Shown one piece after another: positions 48,210 to 56,479 of a stretch of DNA of 64,000 bases. Source of the stretch: Lactobacillus sp. ESL0684 (GTDB lineage: Bacteria > Bacillota > Bacilli > Lactobacillales > Lactobacillaceae); NCBI RefSeq assembly GCF_029392675.1, contig NZ_CP113941.1:1228001-1292000 (forward strand), read 5' to 3'. The number at the start of each line of letters is the position of its first letter. The stretch's first letter is position 1. The notes beneath the pieces are model-generated. The model made no database searches, was not told the origin of the DNA, and saw only the letters and a program-made list of their open reading frames with translations. A program made the translations under genes and the position numbers.

Positions 48210-49421
48210 TTAATCCTTTACTATATCTTTTGTATCTTTAACTTGGTCGGCTGTCTTGACCTGATCTTTGTCAGTCTGATCCTCTGCAAAGACTTGTGAA
48301 ACCTTACGGTAATAATTATACACACGCATAGTAATGATCTTTAAGACTGCATAAATTGGAATCCCAAAGATCACTCCCCAAAGTCCCCAAACTGAACTAG
48401 CACCGATTAACAATAAAATCGTAGTTACCGGATGCATTTCCATCTTATTACCCATAACCAAAGGACTAATTATTCGTGATTCGATAGTTTGTTCAATCGC
48501 AAATACAATTAAAACCTTGATTAGCATTGGAAAAGAAACCATCATGGCAATCACTAATGCAGGAATAATAGAAATAAAAGTGCCAAAGTATGGAATTAAA
48601 TTCAAAACACCACTTAAAACTGCCAAAGCAACTGCATAGGGCTCACCAATAACAGTGTACCCAATTCCAAACATTATGCCAACCCACAGGGCAACTGTAA
48701 TTTGTCCTCGAATATATGAGGCTAGAGCGGTATTAATATCATATAGCAACTGACTAAAACTAGCTTGCCAACGCTTAGGAGCAAACCCCGTCAAATATGG
48801 CCGCAATTGATGACCATCTTTCAACATAAAAAATAAAATAAAGGGTGCTGTAAACAAAGTCATAAAGATCATTGTAACCACGCTAATTGCCGACGAAATA
48901 TTGGTAATTGCTGTATTAAAGGCAGTTTTCCCGGATTTAAATAATAGGTTTTGTGCCTGACTAAGTGCGCTATTGAGACTATTTTTAACACTATGGAGCT
49001 GTGGATCCTGCAACGCATTTTGTACTGCACTTACCGCATCCTCCCAAATATGTGGCCAATTCTTAATCAATGAATTAATTTGACTTTGCACAATTGGCAA
49101 CAGCGTATTGATTGCCCAAATTAACAAAACCGCTACTATTACAAGTAAGCCAACAATGGTTATTACTCTAGGAACCTTAAACTTGCGTTCAAGTAAATCA
49201 ACCAGCGGATTCATAATATAGTACTGAATTACTGCCAATATTAATGGCGGCAACACTGCACTCATAAACAACTTGGCTGGATTTAACACAAAAGAAACTT
49301 TGTTAAATAGCCAAATAACTAGAAAAAACAGTAATAAATTAACCAATACTACACTAAAGCGATTATTTAAAAACCATTTTTGAAATACAGTAGTTTGCTT
49401 ATCTTTTCGTTCGTAATTCAT
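48210..49421 (-). CDS. AI-2E-family transporter (PerM/YtvI type)
   Basis: A 403-residue membrane protein with about eight helices and the family signature: PYFGTFISIIPALVIAMM, then ESRIISPLVMGNKMEMHPVTTILLLIGASSVWGLWG. The family includes the reported AI-2 exporter TqsA and Na+/H+ antiporters of the UPF0118 group, so the substrate is open. It ends in a charged Asp/Lys tail of about 45 residues. It is downstream of the GutA-like gene, with 13 bases between. Confidence 0.85.
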   Translation of the reverse strand: MNYERKDKQTTVFQKWFLNNRFSVVLVNLLLFFLVIWLFNKVSFVLNPAKLFMSAVLPPLILAVIQYYIMNPLVDLLERKFKVPRVITIVGLLVIVAVLLIWAINTLLPIVQSQINSLIKNWPHIWEDAVSAVQNALQDPQLHSVKNSLNSALSQAQNLLFKSGKTAFNTAITNISSAISVVTMIFMTLFTAPFILFFMLKDGHQLRPYLTGFAPKRWQASFSQLLYDINTALASYIRGQITVALWVGIMFGIGYTVIGEPYAVALAVLSGVLNLIPYFGTFISIIPALVIAMMVSFPMLIKVLIVFAIEQTIESRIISPLVMGNKMEMHPVTTILLLIGASSVWGLWGVIFGIPIYAVLKIITMRVYNYYRKVSQVFAEDQTDKDQVKTADQVKDTKDIVKD

Positions 49422-49434
49422 TAAAATATCCTAA

Positions 49435-49815
49435 TCAAATATGTTCATAAATAATTTCAGCACCAATTTCAAATTGCGGCTGAGTTTGTTTTGCTGTTAG
49501 ACTCAGATAAATAGCATTGGCAAGCGGATTCTTAGGAATCTTTTGACCAATAAACAGAGTAGAATGTCCCAAAGCACGCATATTGCTTTCGACCATTGGT
49601 CCAACATAATCAGCCAAATATGTTTGACCATCAATAGTAACGGTGTCACCTTTTTTCAAAACAAAATTATTTACGAGGCTATCCCGGTCAAACTTTTGTA
49701 TCACAGACACATCTACCAATTCTGGACTCACATTTTCACCAAATAAAATTACCATTTGCTGATCAGCTACAAAGGCTTGCTGACCAATTTGCTTAATTGT
49801 TGAAATCCACTTCAT
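49435..49815 (-). CDS. GutA/SrlB-like protein lacking the phosphorylatable His
   Basis: A 126-residue stand-alone protein matching PTS glucitol/sorbitol IIA (IKQIGQQAFVADQQMVILFGE; SNMRALGHSTLFIGQ). Aligned to E. coli SrlB, the segment around phospho-His43 (ADLEEYCFIH) corresponds to PELVDVSVIQ, so position 40 is Gln. It is probably not a phosphocarrier. AAGGAG precedes the chosen MKWIST start; the longer reading at 49848 overlaps the site. No IIB, IIC or sorbitol dehydrogenase gene is near. It is probably cotranscribed with the AI-2E-type permease gene. A regulatory or ligand-binding role is speculation. Confidence 0.75.
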   Translation of the reverse strand: MKWISTIKQIGQQAFVADQQMVILFGENVSPELVDVSVIQKFDRDSLVNNFVLKKGDTVTIDGQTYLADYVGPMVESNMRALGHSTLFIGQKIPKNPLANAIYLSLTAKQTQPQFEIGAEIIYEHI

Positions 49816-49851
49816 TTTACTATTCTCCTTAGAACTTAATTCTAGCATACC

Positions 49852-49889
49852 AAAAACCGCTTAACTAATATCTAAGCGGTTTTATTTTT
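49852..49889. terminator. Bidirectional terminator at the P-type ATPase gene end
   Basis: AAAACCGCTTA and TAAGCGGTTTT pair around a short loop, with T-rich DNA on both outer sides. It ends the ATPase gene on the minus strand. Confidence 0.8.
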
Positions 49890-52643
49890 TTATTTTTTAT
49901 GGTAGAACAACCATTTTCGAGCTTCATCAATTAATACAAGTGGAATTGGTAGACAAGCTAGAAATAACCAATCGGTTGGTAATAATTGGTTAGTATTGAA
50001 TATTTGTTGCAATCCTGGAGTTATTGTCAAAATTAAAAACAAAATGATTTCAAAAATAATTCCATACCAGATATTATGGTTACTGAACAACCCTTTTTGA
50101 AAAATTGAGATTTTATTTGTACGACAATTTAAAACATTAGCAATTTGGGTAAAAATAATCGTTCCTAAAACCATAGTAGTTGCACGTGCATATACTGGAC
50201 CGTTAGCAGCCAAAGCTACATTAGGCCAACCATTTTGCAAATTAACCAGCAAATATGCACCAACTGAAATAAGGCTGGCAATCAAACCATACCAGAAAAA
50301 TGCCCGTCTAATTACTTGCCGATTTAACAAATGTTCACTACGTTTACGTGGTGCTTGCTGCATAATATCAGGATCCACTGATTCACTTCCAAGACCTAAA
50401 GCAGGTAACATATCAGTTCCTAAGTCAACTGTTAGAATCTGCATAACCGTCATTGGTAATGGAATTAGACCACCTGAAAACAGGAATAAAATTGATGGAA
50501 AAGCCTCAGGCACATTCGAGGTCAAAATATAGGTCAAAAACTTACGAATATTACTATAAACGGCACGCCCCTCTTCAATAGCAGCTACAATCGAGGCAAA
50601 ATTATCATCAGTCAAAATAATATTAGCTGCATCTTTAGCAACATCTGTTCCAGTTAAACCCATTGCAATCCCAATATCCGCCTGCTTTAAAGCTGGCGCA
50701 TCATTAACACCGTCGCCTGTTGAGGCCACAATCTCACCATTTGCTTGCAGCGTTTTGACTACCCGATATTTTTGTTCAGGAGCTACTCTAGCAAAAATAA
50801 CTTCTCCTCGCAGTGCTGCCCGCAAATCAGTATCGCTCATCGAACTTAGTTCACTACCAGTAATTACACGTGCTTTATCTGAAGTTAACCCGATATGGAC
50901 GGCCACTGATTTAGCAGTTAATTCTGAATCACCAGTAACCATGATGATTTTTATTTTAGCCTCATGACAGCGACGAATTGCAGCATAAATTTCTGGTCGT
51001 GGTGGATCACTCATTGTAGTTAAGCCGACAAAGACCAATTGTTGTTCTGCATCAGCAATTGTTAGCTGATTGACATCATTATTTGCTGCAATTACGCGGT
51101 AGGCTAGTGCCATGCTACGCAAGCCTTGGGCAGCATAGTTGGCATTGACTTTAGCAATCTGCTTGCGGTCGTCTTCAGATAGCGGTCGAACCTTGCCTCC
51201 AGCTTGAATTCGGTCACACTGTTTAATCGTGTCACTAAAAGATCCCTTAGTAAAAACAATATTCTCTGTCTCAGTTAAATGATGAATCGTTGACATCCGT
51301 TTACGCTCAGAATCAAATGGTAATTCTCTTAAACGCGGATACTTTGCTTGCTCTGTTTGTAAGTCAAATCCTGCTTTTTGCGCCATAATTACCAAAGCCG
51401 CTTCAGTTGGCGTACCAAGAATCTTTGGTTTGCCATTCTTTGTTTTACTAGGCTGAACATTAGTATCATTGTCTAACGCGGCAATTTGTACAGCCCTTGC
51501 TAAATCCGGATTAGCTGAATAAGTTAATTTTTGCCCTTTAAGTTCAACTTGACCATTATTTACATAACCATTACCAGTTACAGTATATTCATTTTCAGGT
51601 GTCCATAGATAGTGGACGGTCATTTGGTTTTGAGTCAGAGTGCCAGTCTTATCGGAACAAATAACCGTAGTTTCGCCCAAAGTTTCAACAGAATTTAACT
51701 CTTTAACCAAAGCGTGCTTTTTAGCCATTCTACGAACACCCTGTGCCAAACTCAAGGTAACTGTCGGCAATAGCCCTTCTGGGATAAAGGCCACAATCAT
51801 CCCAAGTGCAAAAATAAAGGCTTTGGCAAATGGATATTTAACGATAAAGATTGCTGCCAACAAGAACAATACCCCTATTGAAACAGCAATAATCGATAAT
51901 TGCTTAGTTAGCCGGTTAAGTTCTTCAGTTAAAGGACTAGTTACTTGTTCCTGTTTTTGAGTCAATTGTGCAATCTTACCAAATTCAGTATTCATTCCTG
52001 TGTTAAATGCAATCGCTTTAGCACTCCCAGCACTAACGGTAGTTCCAGAGTATACCAAATTAGTTTCTGCATAACTACCTTCCCCTGGCGCATATTTAGT
52101 TGATTTAGCAGTTGGAACAGATTCACCAGTCAAGGCACTTTGATCAACTTGCAGCGAATTGGTACTGATTAGCCGTGCATCTGCAGGAATCGAATCACCA
52201 GCCTGCAAAATAAAAACATCCCCAGGAACCAATTGCTTAGCATCAATTTGCAGCCGTTTACCAGCTCGAATAACATCGACATAAGTTGGCAGTAAGTTGT
52301 TAAGTGCAGCTGTTGCTTTCTTAGCAGCCCGCTCTTGCCAAAAACTAAATAAACCATTAATGATATTCACTAGCCAAATTGCAATTCCAAGACCAACAGT
52401 GCCACTAATAATCGCAATTGCACCTGAGATCCATAATAAAATTGCCATGGTACTCAGGAAGTTCTTTAAAAAAGCCTTCCATTGTGCTTGTTGTTCGGGC
52501 TTTTTAATTTCATTAACACCATACTTTTGCAAACGCTGCTCAGCTTCATTGTCGCTTAATCCACTATCAGTCGAATGCAAATTAGCATAAACTGCCGTAA
52601 GCTCATCTTCAGCATAAAGTTTACGAATTGTATTTTGATCCAT
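49890..52643 (-). CDS. P-type ATPase of the Na,K-ATPase-like (IIC) branch
   Basis: A 917-residue cation pump. It has the TGES actuator motif (ALTGESVP), phosphorylated Asp331 in CSDKTGTLTQN, nucleotide-domain KGSFSDTI, and hinge TGDGVNDAPALK. Membrane ligands match the alpha subunit of animal Na,K-ATPase rather than SERCA: PEGLLPTVT with Glu289, YILTSNVPE with Tyr705, Ser709, Asn710 and Glu713, and DLGTDMLPA with Asp740 and Asp744. No beta-subunit gene is nearby. Annotation as a Ca pump would be less precise. It is a single gene with AGAGG before the ATG. Confidence 0.85.
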   Translation of the reverse strand: MDQNTIRKLYAEDELTAVYANLHSTDSGLSDNEAEQRLQKYGVNEIKKPEQQAQWKAFLKNFLSTMAILLWISGAIAIISGTVGLGIAIWLVNIINGLFSFWQERAAKKATAALNNLLPTYVDVIRAGKRLQIDAKQLVPGDVFILQAGDSIPADARLISTNSLQVDQSALTGESVPTAKSTKYAPGEGSYAETNLVYSGTTVSAGSAKAIAFNTGMNTEFGKIAQLTQKQEQVTSPLTEELNRLTKQLSIIAVSIGVLFLLAAIFIVKYPFAKAFIFALGMIVAFIPEGLLPTVTLSLAQGVRRMAKKHALVKELNSVETLGETTVICSDKTGTLTQNQMTVHYLWTPENEYTVTGNGYVNNGQVELKGQKLTYSANPDLARAVQIAALDNDTNVQPSKTKNGKPKILGTPTEAALVIMAQKAGFDLQTEQAKYPRLRELPFDSERKRMSTIHHLTETENIVFTKGSFSDTIKQCDRIQAGGKVRPLSEDDRKQIAKVNANYAAQGLRSMALAYRVIAANNDVNQLTIADAEQQLVFVGLTTMSDPPRPEIYAAIRRCHEAKIKIIMVTGDSELTAKSVAVHIGLTSDKARVITGSELSSMSDTDLRAALRGEVIFARVAPEQKYRVVKTLQANGEIVASTGDGVNDAPALKQADIGIAMGLTGTDVAKDAANIILTDDNFASIVAAIEEGRAVYSNIRKFLTYILTSNVPEAFPSILFLFSGGLIPLPMTVMQILTVDLGTDMLPALGLGSESVDPDIMQQAPRKRSEHLLNRQVIRRAFFWYGLIASLISVGAYLLVNLQNGWPNVALAANGPVYARATTMVLGTIIFTQIANVLNCRTNKISIFQKGLFSNHNIWYGIIFEIILFLILTITPGLQQIFNTNQLLPTDWLFLACLPIPLVLIDEARKWLFYHKK

Positions 52644-52792
52644 TAGAGTCGCCTCTCAGACTTTCCGCCCTGAAGTAATATCAAGGTCACAAAATAACAT
52701 TTCTTAAGAAAAACACGAAATTCTTTATCCTTGCTTGTCGTGTTATACTTATTAAATTAAGTATATTACAATGTTCAGATGGAGGCATGAAT

Positions 52793-53821
52793 ATGAAACT
52801 ATTAATTGGTGGCTACACTAAAAATAAGGCTACTGGTATCTATGAATTACCCGTTACTGAGGGGCAACCAATCAAAGTGGGACAAGCTCAAGAAATAATT
52901 AAAATTGGTGGGCCAACCTATTTTGTTAAAGATGAGCAACTGCTCTTTACTATTAATAATGCTGGTGACAAGGGCGGTATCAGTGCATTTAAATTAACTG
53001 AGCAACATTATCAAGAAACCGACTCCGCATTGAGTACTGGTTCTTCTCCAGCCTATATTGGCATTAATCGACCGCACAAGTTGCTCTATACAGCTAATTA
53101 TCATACAGCAAAATTAGCCGTATATTCCTATACTACTGCTGGAAAATTAACCTTACTTGATTCAGTAACACACAAGGCAGACAATTTAGGACCAAGACCT
53201 GAACAAATAGATGGTGCACATCCTCACTTCTTCGATCAAACACCACAAGGCAACTTAGTTAGTTGTGATTTAGGCAATGATCGGGTCGATTTCTACCAAT
53301 TTAAGAATCAAAAGCTCCAACACGTCGCTGAATATCAAAATGAGGCGGGTTTTGGTAGTCGGCACCTAGTCTTTAGTCCAGATGGGAACTATTTTTATGT
53401 CGTAGGTGAATTATCAAGCAAGATTAATTTAGTCAAATTTAATGAAGAAACTTGGCAATTTGATAACTTGGCAACTTATTCGACAATACCAGCAAATTAC
53501 ACTGCACATAACGGAGCAGCCGCTATTAGAATGAGCAGTGATGGAAAATTCATTTACGTTTCTAATCGTGGACATAATTCAATTACCGTCTTTAAAGTTA
53601 AAGACGACCATACTTTAGAAATTAGTCAACGCATCTCCACCTTTGGCGAATTTCCACGTGATTTCAATTGGGATCAGGCTGAAAAATACGTCGTGGTTGC
53701 TAACCAAAATACCAATAATGCTACTTTATATGAGCGTGATGCTGATAACGGGGCGTTAACTCCGCTTCAAAAAAATATTCAAGTACCAGAAGGAACTTGT
53801 GTAGTATTTGAAAATGAGTAA
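52793..53821 (+). CDS. pgl: Lactonase-family beta-propeller (6-phosphogluconolactonase type)
   Basis: A 342-residue seven-bladed propeller of the YbhE/Pgl lactonase family (GYTKNKATGIYELPV; GAHPHFFDQTP; GSRHLVFSPDGNYFYVVGE; HNGAAAIRMSSDGKFIYVSNRGHNSI). Hydrolysis of 6-phosphogluconolactone is the family activity, though some members act on other lactones. The start is MKLLIGG with GGAGG seven bases upstream; the ATG at 52787 is too close to the site. An extended -10 (TGTTATACT) is upstream. The IS1182 element begins 14 bases after the stop. Confidence 0.85.
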   Translation: MKLLIGGYTKNKATGIYELPVTEGQPIKVGQAQEIIKIGGPTYFVKDEQLLFTINNAGDKGGISAFKLTEQHYQETDSALSTGSSPAYIGINRPHKLLYTANYHTAKLAVYSYTTAGKLTLLDSVTHKADNLGPRPEQIDGAHPHFFDQTPQGNLVSCDLGNDRVDFYQFKNQKLQHVAEYQNEAGFGSRHLVFSPDGNYFYVVGELSSKINLVKFNEETWQFDNLATYSTIPANYTAHNGAAAIRMSSDGKFIYVSNRGHNSITVFKVKDDHTLEISQRISTFGEFPRDFNWDQAEKYVVVANQNTNNATLYERDADNGALTPLQKNIQVPEGTCVVFENE

Positions 53822-53979: not shown

Positions 53980-55644
53980 ATGTATCAAAATTATATCACA
54001 GGTCAAACTGCTTTAACACTCAACTTTGACTTTTCTATTCCTAAAAATCATCTTGCTCAGGTTATCAGTGATTTTGTCGACTCGATTCCTGCCGATGTGT
54101 TGCTGGAAGACAATTCAAATACTGGTCGGCCTGCCTATCACCCAGCAATGATGCTCAAAATACTACTCTTTGCCTATTCTAGACGCGTTTTCTCTGGTAG
54201 AAAAATTGAGCGGATGCTCACAGAAAACCTCCCGATGATGGTCATAGCTGGTGGTAAACATATTTCATATCATACGATCAATAACTTTAGAGCTAGTAGC
54301 CATACCAATCAGCTGATTAAACAAGCTTTTGTCTATTTTACTAATCTTTTGCAAGCAGAAGGGTTGCTTAGAGAAGATGCTATCTTTATTGATGGGACTA
54401 AAATTGAAGCTGATGCTAACAAGTATACTTTCGTTTGGAAAAGAGCTGTCGAAAAGTTTCATACTAAGTTAAAGGCTAATGCAGTTGAGCTTTATGATGA
54501 ATTAATTCAAAAAGAAGTAATCCAAGCGATTACTGAAGAAGAAGCACAAACTAGTCAGGGTCTGGCAATCATGGCAGAACAAACAGAAACTGTCATCAAG
54601 CAACTAGATGAAGCAATCGCGGCTGAGCCGAAAGTAATTCCTGGAGGTTCAACTAAAAAACGCCAAAGGCGAGGCCTTAAAAGAGTCTTGCATAAGTTGC
54701 GTCAGGATTTTATCCCCAGAGCAGAAAAGTATGAACAGGCGCAAGCAACTTTTGGTGAGCGTAATAGCTACTCAAAGACCGATCATGATGCCACTTTTAT
54801 GCATATGAAAGAAGATCATATGAGGAATGGTCAGCTTAAACCCGGATATAATATTCAAGTGGCAACTACCAACCAATATGTAGTAGATTATGCACTTTAC
54901 CCTAATCCAACAGACTTCAAGACTTTAGAACCTTTCTTAAAGCAAATGACAAATTTAGACAAGTTCCAGAACATCGTTGCCGATGCCGGCTATGGCAGCG
55001 AATATAATTATTCTATGCTTGAAAATGAGTATGAAGATAAACAATATTTTATTCCTTACAGCCTTTACGATAAGGAGCAGACTAGAAAGTATCAAAATGA
55101 TCCCACCAAGCTGGCGAATTGGACTTATAATGAGCAAGAAGATTATTACCTTGACTGGCAAGGTGTGCGTTTTAATTTCAAACGGTATGGTAAGCGGAGG
55201 AATAAGAGTACGGGGTTAATCTCTGATCTAAAAATATATGAAGCAGATGAGTTTCAGTTAACAGCTGAATTAACTGAGCTAGCCAAAACTAAAAGCGGAC
55301 GCCAAAGGCAGGTGCAATACAACCCCAATTGGCAATATTTAAAGGCAAAAGCTAAACAAACTCTTCAAAGTAGCGAAGGCAAACTGATCTATAGCTATAG
55401 AAAAACGGACGTAGAGCCAGTCTTTGGACATATGAAGAACGTTTTTGGTGTGCGCAGAACACACTTGCGAGGGAAGAAAAAGGTCGAAACCGATGTAGGC
55501 TTGATGTTCATGATGATGAATTTGAGCAAATATTGGAGTAGAAGAGGTGGCGGAAAACTTCTTTTACAGGAAATAAGCAATAAAAAACAGATCAAGATTT
55601 TCTTATTACGAAAACTTGGTCTGTTTTTAAGTCTGAAGAGTTAA
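53980..55644 (+). CDS. IS1182-family transposase
   Basis: A 554-residue DDE transposase, uninterrupted. The N-terminal domain (about 35-110) contains GRPAYHPAMMLKILLFAYSRRVFSGRKIERM. The catalytic core shows Asp in IFIDGTKIEADANKYTF, Asp in VADAGYGSEY and the C-terminal YRKTDVEPVFGHMKNVFGVRRTHLRG block. AAAGGTGGG precedes the ATG. The frame ends at the start of the right inverted repeat. The intact gene and perfect ends suggest recent activity. Confidence 0.95.
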   Translation: MYQNYITGQTALTLNFDFSIPKNHLAQVISDFVDSIPADVLLEDNSNTGRPAYHPAMMLKILLFAYSRRVFSGRKIERMLTENLPMMVIAGGKHISYHTINNFRASSHTNQLIKQAFVYFTNLLQAEGLLREDAIFIDGTKIEADANKYTFVWKRAVEKFHTKLKANAVELYDELIQKEVIQAITEEEAQTSQGLAIMAEQTETVIKQLDEAIAAEPKVIPGGSTKKRQRRGLKRVLHKLRQDFIPRAEKYEQAQATFGERNSYSKTDHDATFMHMKEDHMRNGQLKPGYNIQVATTNQYVVDYALYPNPTDFKTLEPFLKQMTNLDKFQNIVADAGYGSEYNYSMLENEYEDKQYFIPYSLYDKEQTRKYQNDPTKLANWTYNEQEDYYLDWQGVRFNFKRYGKRRNKSTGLISDLKIYEADEFQLTAELTELAKTKSGRQRQVQYNPNWQYLKAKAKQTLQSSEGKLIYSYRKTDVEPVFGHMKNVFGVRRTHLRGKKKVETDVGLMFMMMNLSKYWSRRGGGKLLLQEISNKKQIKIFLLRKLGLFLSLKS

Positions 55645-55681: not shown

Positions 55682-56479
55682 TTAGCTGTTTTTTTCTAAT
55701 AAGCGCATTTGCTCCCAAGATTCAATTGCTAGATGCCACTGGTGACCGCTAACGATTTCGTCTGGCGCGGCTTTAGGTACAAAAATTGCTCCCTTAATTT
55801 TAATGCCATCAGGTAAAGGCTTAAATTGATGGAATGGAATATTATTAATCTCGCTACCATCAGATGCCAAAACTGGATTACCAACTGAAAGAATTGGGTA
55901 GTCAGGTTCACGTTTAATTGGTAAATTGATATTCAAGTCACCTTCCTTAACTACATTAACAAACATATTAGTCGGTTCACCGTACATGCCGAAAGTTTCC
56001 ATAACATGCAAGCCATTATCACCGTGACCTGTCATAATAAAGTGCTCTGGATTAGTTTCATATTCAGTCTCGGCATTTCCATTTGCTGCGGCATCTGGGC
56101 TTAAACCTTGAGCTAAGACTTGTGGATCAACACCATGAACCTCAAATTCCGTCACACCCGCTTTCATCGGATCGCCCATCTTAAAGTCTTTGTTGATATC
56201 CTTCCACATTTGATCACTCAAAGCAATTTTATCATGGTAAAGATTTTCTAATTCACTAGCTGAGTATTGACTCCGAGTAGCAACATTAACTCGTCTAGCA
56301 TCAGTTTGGGATAATGCATCAATTTCCGAGTCGGATAAATCTTGACCATTATTTTTTACCGAAGCACCTAAAGCCTTCATTTCATGAAGAACATGTTTAT
56401 TTCTTTCATATTCAATTGATTCAACTTGATCATAAAAAATTTCATGCCCATTCATGTAAACCTTAATATCTAACTTCAT
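55682..56479 (-). CDS. Uncharacterised cytosolic protein, divergent from a TetR gene
   Basis: A 265-residue soluble acidic protein with no signal peptide and no membrane segment. I recognise no family. The N-terminal part has predicted helices (SDSEIDALSQTDARR; SASELENLYHDKI). The C-terminal half is Gly/Pro/Asp-rich and beta-like (HFIMTGHGDNGLHVMETFGMYGEPTNMF; GIKIKGAIFVPKAAPDE). AGGAGG precedes the ATG. It is divergent from the TetR-family gene, and a long inverted repeat lies between them, so it is the likely target. An intracellular metabolic role is a guess. Confidence 0.6.
   Translation of the reverse strand: MKLDIKVYMNGHEIFYDQVESIEYERNKHVLHEMKALGASVKNNGQDLSDSEIDALSQTDARRVNVATRSQYSASELENLYHDKIALSDQMWKDINKDFKMGDPMKAGVTEFEVHGVDPQVLAQGLSPDAAANGNAETEYETNPEHFIMTGHGDNGLHVMETFGMYGEPTNMFVNVVKEGDLNINLPIKREPDYPILSVGNPVLASDGSEINNIPFHQFKPLPDGIKIKGAIFVPKAAPDEIVSGHQWHLAIESWEQMRLLEKNS

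Follow-up and report, generated by a model that had tools for sequence, protein, structure and literature searches.

A stand-alone GutA-like protein of Lactobacillus with Gln in the column of SrlB His43 and a conserved LGH histidine as candidate phosphorylation site

His43 of Escherichia coli SrlB is, as we presume in common with an earlier note on the DNA described here, the annotated phosphorylation site of this sorbitol IIA component of the phosphotransferase system (PTS). Within the GutA-type family, a passage of the ECOD paper of 2014 proposed the invariant C-terminal His of the solved structure 2f9h as the likely phosphosite (PMC4256011). Pediococcus parvulus 2.6 is described as a sorbitol fermenter, and 2.6NR, which is devoid of the sorbitol cluster, as leaving sorbitol untouched (PMC5723342). 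In the PTS inventory of Lactobacillus gasseri ATCC 33323, ORF 1348 (PTS 13A), named "Glucitol/sorbitol PTS, EIIA", appears among the incomplete PTSs, with IIA as its only component (PMC2848229). Among the publications searched, which were judged by title and the start of the abstract and left most subscription journals outside, none determined experimentally where a GutA-type IIA is phosphorylated, and phosphorylation data for stand-alone GutA-like members were not found.

The window, that is, the whole 64,000-nucleotide stretch of Lactobacillus sp. ESL0684 DNA analysed here, contains an ORF running from 49815 to 49435 that encodes a 126-aa GutA-like protein. The ORF is a real gene located on the minus strand, which the earlier note had left unstated. 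ATG 49815 is the likelier start on sequence grounds, since an AAGGAG ends 9 nt upstream and the MKW beginning is shared by relatives, being found at this point in 29 of the 30 rows of a named set composed of the window and 29 further loci (one from Lacticaseibacillus, the others from Lactobacillus); a possible alternative is the ATG at 49848, further upstream. The protein passed the cut-off of PF03829 (PTSIIA_gutA; 85.8 bits vs 25) and covered profile positions 2-113 of 113, the full model, while scoring below the cut-off of the NCBIfam model TIGR00849 gutA (41.7 bits vs 189.55). Both blocks quoted earlier as fold-defining for PTS glucitol IIA, MVILFGE and ALGHSTLFIG, are present. The predicted structure (pLDDT 93.2) superimposed on solved 2f9h with Z 21.4 and an rmsd of 1.3 Å over 118 aligned residues at 32% identity, and Foldseek returned the same entry with an E value of 9.5e-14, so that the model supports a GutA-like double-repeat barrel fold. 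After 2f9h, the structural matches drop to Z 5.3 or less, DUF371 proteins among them.

The gene stands alone not only in its neighbourhood, where the absence of IIB and IIC genes had already been noticed, but in the whole genome. This genome carries a single PF03829 copy, and profile searches with PF03608 (sorbitol IIC) and PF07663 (IIBC) gave no match for either throughout it, with a positive E. coli control. Considering that the protein falls below the TIGR00849 cut-off and that its cognate partners are absent, it is not to be called a sorbitol IIA. The same genome does encode the enzyme I domain PF05524. A PF03829 protein occurs in 121 Lactobacillaceae genomes, 120 of which also have PF05524, as seen when the genome lists (301 genomes per search) were compared by eye; the 38 genomes lacking PF05524 include just one with a PF03829 protein, G040, whose copy bears both the Gln and the His discussed below; G040 is 87% complete and gave no enzyme I match. 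This co-distribution is confounded by ancestry, and much of the match could come from shared descent.

Residue classes were counted in an alignment of 134 rows, comprising 55 Lactobacillaceae proteins (window included), 40 from a draw over the phylum, 38 from a draw over the order, and E. coli SrlB. These rows were chosen from match lists for spread over genera and are no full census; L001, another copy of the window gene, was dropped before counting, the short loci L002-L031, L090-L119 and L160-L169 were excluded, and links to srlA or srlE were sought among the six called genes on each flank, with some loci ending sooner. Alignment and spacing bore out the earlier placement of Gln40 (codon 49696..49698, minus strand) in the column of E. 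coli K-12 SrlB His43. The residue in this column lies exactly 15 positions after an invariant Phe in all 62 proteins with Gln, all 30 PTS-linked proteins with His and all 26 PTS-linked proteins with Ile, Leu or Val, and in all aligned rows except two, a constancy indicating that the column is no alignment accident. The 30 His proteins, E. coli SrlB included, are linked to srlA or srlE and the 26 Ile/Leu/Val proteins to both, whereas the 62 Gln proteins and a further 16 with His are unlinked; the window protein, with Gln40, belongs to the unlinked Gln class. By eye, the 30 excluded rows L002-L031 read I, V or L in this column and none reads H. Six Bacillota loci outside Lactobacillales (L136, L139, L149, L151, L152 and L156) keep both His43 and the later His, show neither srlA nor srlE up to six called genes away, and possibly represent other orphan branches.

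The Ile/Leu/Val class bears most directly on the role of His43. All 26 loci carry genes for IIC, IIBC and GutM plus one more gene common to them (cluster c9), and 25 of the 26 also a dehydrogenase gene; apart from L120, from another part of the phylum, all belong to Lactobacillales, and in the tree they form a group of their own with support of 99/94. Based on this conserved sorbitol operon context, they are most simply the sorbitol IIAs of these bacteria. As all 26 lack it, His43 does not define sorbitol IIA function, and annotation relying on it would call working sorbitol IIAs dead. The P. parvulus 2.6 plasmid record NZ_MF766019.1, which holds the sorbitol cluster, provides a case with a phenotype: its GutA has Ile in column 43 and one His in total, within LGH. 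This single-His protein points to the LGH His, on the understanding that the phenotype belongs to the whole cluster and not to GutA alone. The claim that Gln40 replaces a phosphorylated His is not supported, in view of the 26 operon IIAs of Lactobacillales type and of the P. parvulus protein from a cluster linked to sorbitol fermentation. Gln40 is most likely, judging from the alignment, a marker of its clade and not the loss of a phosphorylated residue. A correction follows for the residue cited as the sorbitol IIA phosphosite, which in the Lactobacillales sorbitol operons is not even a His.

The residue conserved throughout is the His of the LGH motif, His84 in the window protein (codon 49564..49566, minus strand; E. 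coli His83), which is the candidate phosphorylation site. It is His in 133 of the 134 family members, window included, across PTS-linked and stand-alone proteins alike: 30/30 of the PTS-linked His class, 26/26 of the PTS-linked Ile/Leu/Val class, 61/62 of the unlinked Gln class and 16/16 of the unlinked His class. Moreover, it is the sole His in 7 of the 26 operon IIAs, one of which, L196, lacks Cys40 too, and in 12 of the 62 stand-alone Gln proteins. The only exception is L039 of genome G257, the sister of the window protein in the tree, with Gln in place of His84. At L039:5995-6375 the motif reads LEQ, and this genome, of the same genus, contains a complete sorbitol operon as well, with Leu in column 43 of its IIA (L075). 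The alternative that the earlier note had set against its own proposal, another conserved His as the phosphorylation site, is now the better-supported reading, and the window protein retains that His. The proposal of the LGH His is already in print in ECOD, and the evidence from operons and single-His proteins is the addition of the present analysis. Loss of phosphorylation should accordingly not be assumed for the window gene.

The stand-alone proteins form a clade of their own. In a tree built from 128 columns, for which the bootstrap had not fully settled, 66 of them (62 with Gln and four with His in column 43) are set apart by a branch supported at 100/96. The four His members are scattered over separate parts of the clade, from which Gln and His were probably exchanged more than once in this column. 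The earlier suggestion to survey Gln40 in relatives thus yields Gln in 62 of 66 clade members, and Gln40 and His84 are each present in 30/30 of the named set; His84 is kept in 65 of the 66. The dN/dS ratio was 0.03 to 0.21 in 11 of 13 close pairs, those in which it could be computed. The clade is spread over Lactobacillales and is under purifying selection. The viral contigs searched contained no relative. GutA-like matches also appear in six phage records, OR848169.1, OR846767.1, OR846590.1, PQ520338.1, OR848513.1 and one more; the five named are unannotated, show 31-39% identity, and may be bacterial fragments.

The gene occupies a conserved location. An AI-2E-family transporter gene (48210..49421, minus strand; PF01594, 229.8 bits) begins 13 nt downstream, and in the window lineage a P-type cation ATPase gene (cluster c27; 49890..52643, minus strand; PF00122 and PF00689) lies between the GutA-like gene and a divergent gene for a seven-bladed propeller lactonase (52787..53821, plus strand; PF10282, 371.3 bits). 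Of the 62 Gln-class loci, 52 have the AI-2E-family permease gene following directly on the same strand, mostly at a distance of 1 to 30 nt, 56 have the divergent lactonase gene no more than two genes upstream, and none has srlA or srlE nearby. Of the cotranscription with the permease assumed earlier, the shared strand, the 13-nt spacing and the adjacency in 52 of 62 loci were borne out, and cotranscription itself is plausible. A perfect 11-bp inverted repeat with 9 nt between its arms (49853..49883) is a probable terminator after the ATPase gene; the consensus terminator scan, which allows loops of 3-8 only, flagged none, this repeat included. The promoter scan gave three promoter-like sites, no more than in shuffles, and none on the strand of the GutA-like gene. 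On the far side of the lactonase gene lies a transposase gene of DDE_Tnp_1/DUF772 type (53980-55644), followed by an ORF of 265 aa (55682-56479) with no Pfam match at E 0.001.

An obligate pair of GutA-like protein and AI-2E permease was considered and rejected, as the permease occurs without GutA in two congeners, and GutA without a clear permease orthologue in five genomes. The congeners G226 and G286 (L255 and L256) have a permease 58-60% identical to that of the window and no GutA-like gene; their lactonase and permease ORFs stand head to head, 155 and 172 nt apart, and tblastn for a GutA remnant returned nothing meaningful. Cleanly lost in two congeners, the GutA-like gene is dispensable. 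Ten Gln-class loci have no adjacent intact permease ORF: five of these genomes gave only 23-33% permease matches, another four gave one of 39-44% at a different place, and in G732 the adjacent copy contains one internal stop. The lactonase was likewise dismissed as a functional partner, for it is found in 43 of the 44 genomes tested whether GutA is present or absent; co-occurrence therefore says nothing, and only the location is conserved. As some genomes lack the AI-2E orthologue, and the lactonase is found with or without GutA, the protein has no fixed partner. Published work on Lactobacillus AI-2E proteins includes a study of LBA_RS00210 (PMC9134010), which is probably another paralogue and not the equivalent of the window neighbour, the start given by the primer being different.

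The reading that fits the conservation best, to which we give about an even chance from the sequence comparisons, is an orphan IIA-like protein that would be phosphorylated by HPr at His84 and would act as a regulator through its phosphorylation state. On this proposal, a protein of the GutA fold left sugar transport, with no cognate IIB or IIC, and keeps the invariant block with His84; phospho-HPr would most likely phosphorylate His84, and the protein would then work as a phosphorylation-state-dependent regulator of a putative partner. Against this proposal count the Gln at the place of His84 in L039, the GutA-like protein of G040 in a genome with no enzyme I match, the clean loss in two congeners and the want of a fixed partner. 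A bolder and decidedly tentative version takes the Gln40 clade as a so far unrecognised branch of PTS regulation that spans the order, in which the phosphate received from HPr at His84 would be kept owing to Gln40, at a place where most transport IIAs have His, and would report the supply of PEP to a cytosolic or membrane target, for example the AI-2E permease. A glucose IIA mutant reportedly behaves in a comparable way, accepting phosphate without passing it on. The operon IIAs with Ile in column 43 evidently function with no His there. If the regulatory reading is true, an orphan PTS regulator would be added in bacteria whose metabolism depends in large part on the PTS. The mode of action concerns a gene found in much of the order.

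Other explanations can be set against an HPr-dependent regulator. The protein may no longer be a phosphocarrier, its barrel binding a ligand or a protein with His84 serving that site. The fold is common to DUF371 proteins (Z 5.2), for which homology is argued in a passage of ECOD (PMC4256011), the genome holds no partner PTS, and L039 has lost His84; yet all other clade members keep this residue, the family distribution follows enzyme I, and the similarity to DUF371 proteins is weak, at a level that the comparison tool calls common. We regard this explanation as doubtful. Unlikely, too, is a cross-feeding IIA that would be phosphorylated at His84 and donate the phosphate, within the same cell, to the IIB of a different PTS lacking its own IIA. 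It agrees with the retained His84 block, with the enzyme I domain in the genome and with incomplete PTSs being described as common in lactobacilli (PMC2848229), but the genome encodes no GutB-type IIB (PF07663). The GutA fold is not known to pair with any IIB other than the GutB type.

The earlier reading itself, a sensor made non-phosphorylatable by Gln40 in place of the phosphorylated His, draws on the His found in column 43 of every protein of the PTS-linked His class, SrlB among them, and on the retention of Gln40 in nearly the whole stand-alone clade. It has become quite improbable in view of the 26 sorbitol-operon IIAs without this His, the single-His GutA from a cluster linked to sorbitol fermentation, and the four stand-alone His members, which lie apart from one another in the tree. 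That the gene is the decaying remnant of a sorbitol operon since lost, a view which would suit the missing IIB and IIC and the loss in two congeners, is largely refuted and barely credible given the low dN/dS ratios in 11 pairs, the well-supported separation from the operon IIAs, both kinds of protein in several genomes, and the location conserved across the order.

An orphan regulator responding to phosphorylation at His84, as preferred here, can be compared with the known members of the family. E. coli SrlB (PF03829; NC_000913 b2704) resembles the window protein in family and in the invariant Gly, Phe, Gly and LGH His, but it has its own His43, is encoded with srlA and srlE, and is 24% identical. 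The Enterococcus faecalis protein 2f9h ("PTS system, IIA component") has the same fold, likewise with Gln in the His43 column and the later His retained; its sequence reads VIQ at the place of Gln40 and AHS at that of His84, with IAH instead of the LGH of the window protein. The operon GutA proteins of P. parvulus pPP1 and L. salivarius pMP118 are of the same family and, like the window protein, keep the LGH His and lack His43; they differ in having Ile in column 43, in belonging to a separate tree group, and in being encoded with IIC, IIB, GutM, a regulator and a dehydrogenase, unlike the window gene. With orthology to the window protein taken from annotation and genus, ORF 1348 of L. gasseri places an orphan IIA of the window kind already in print (PMC2848229).
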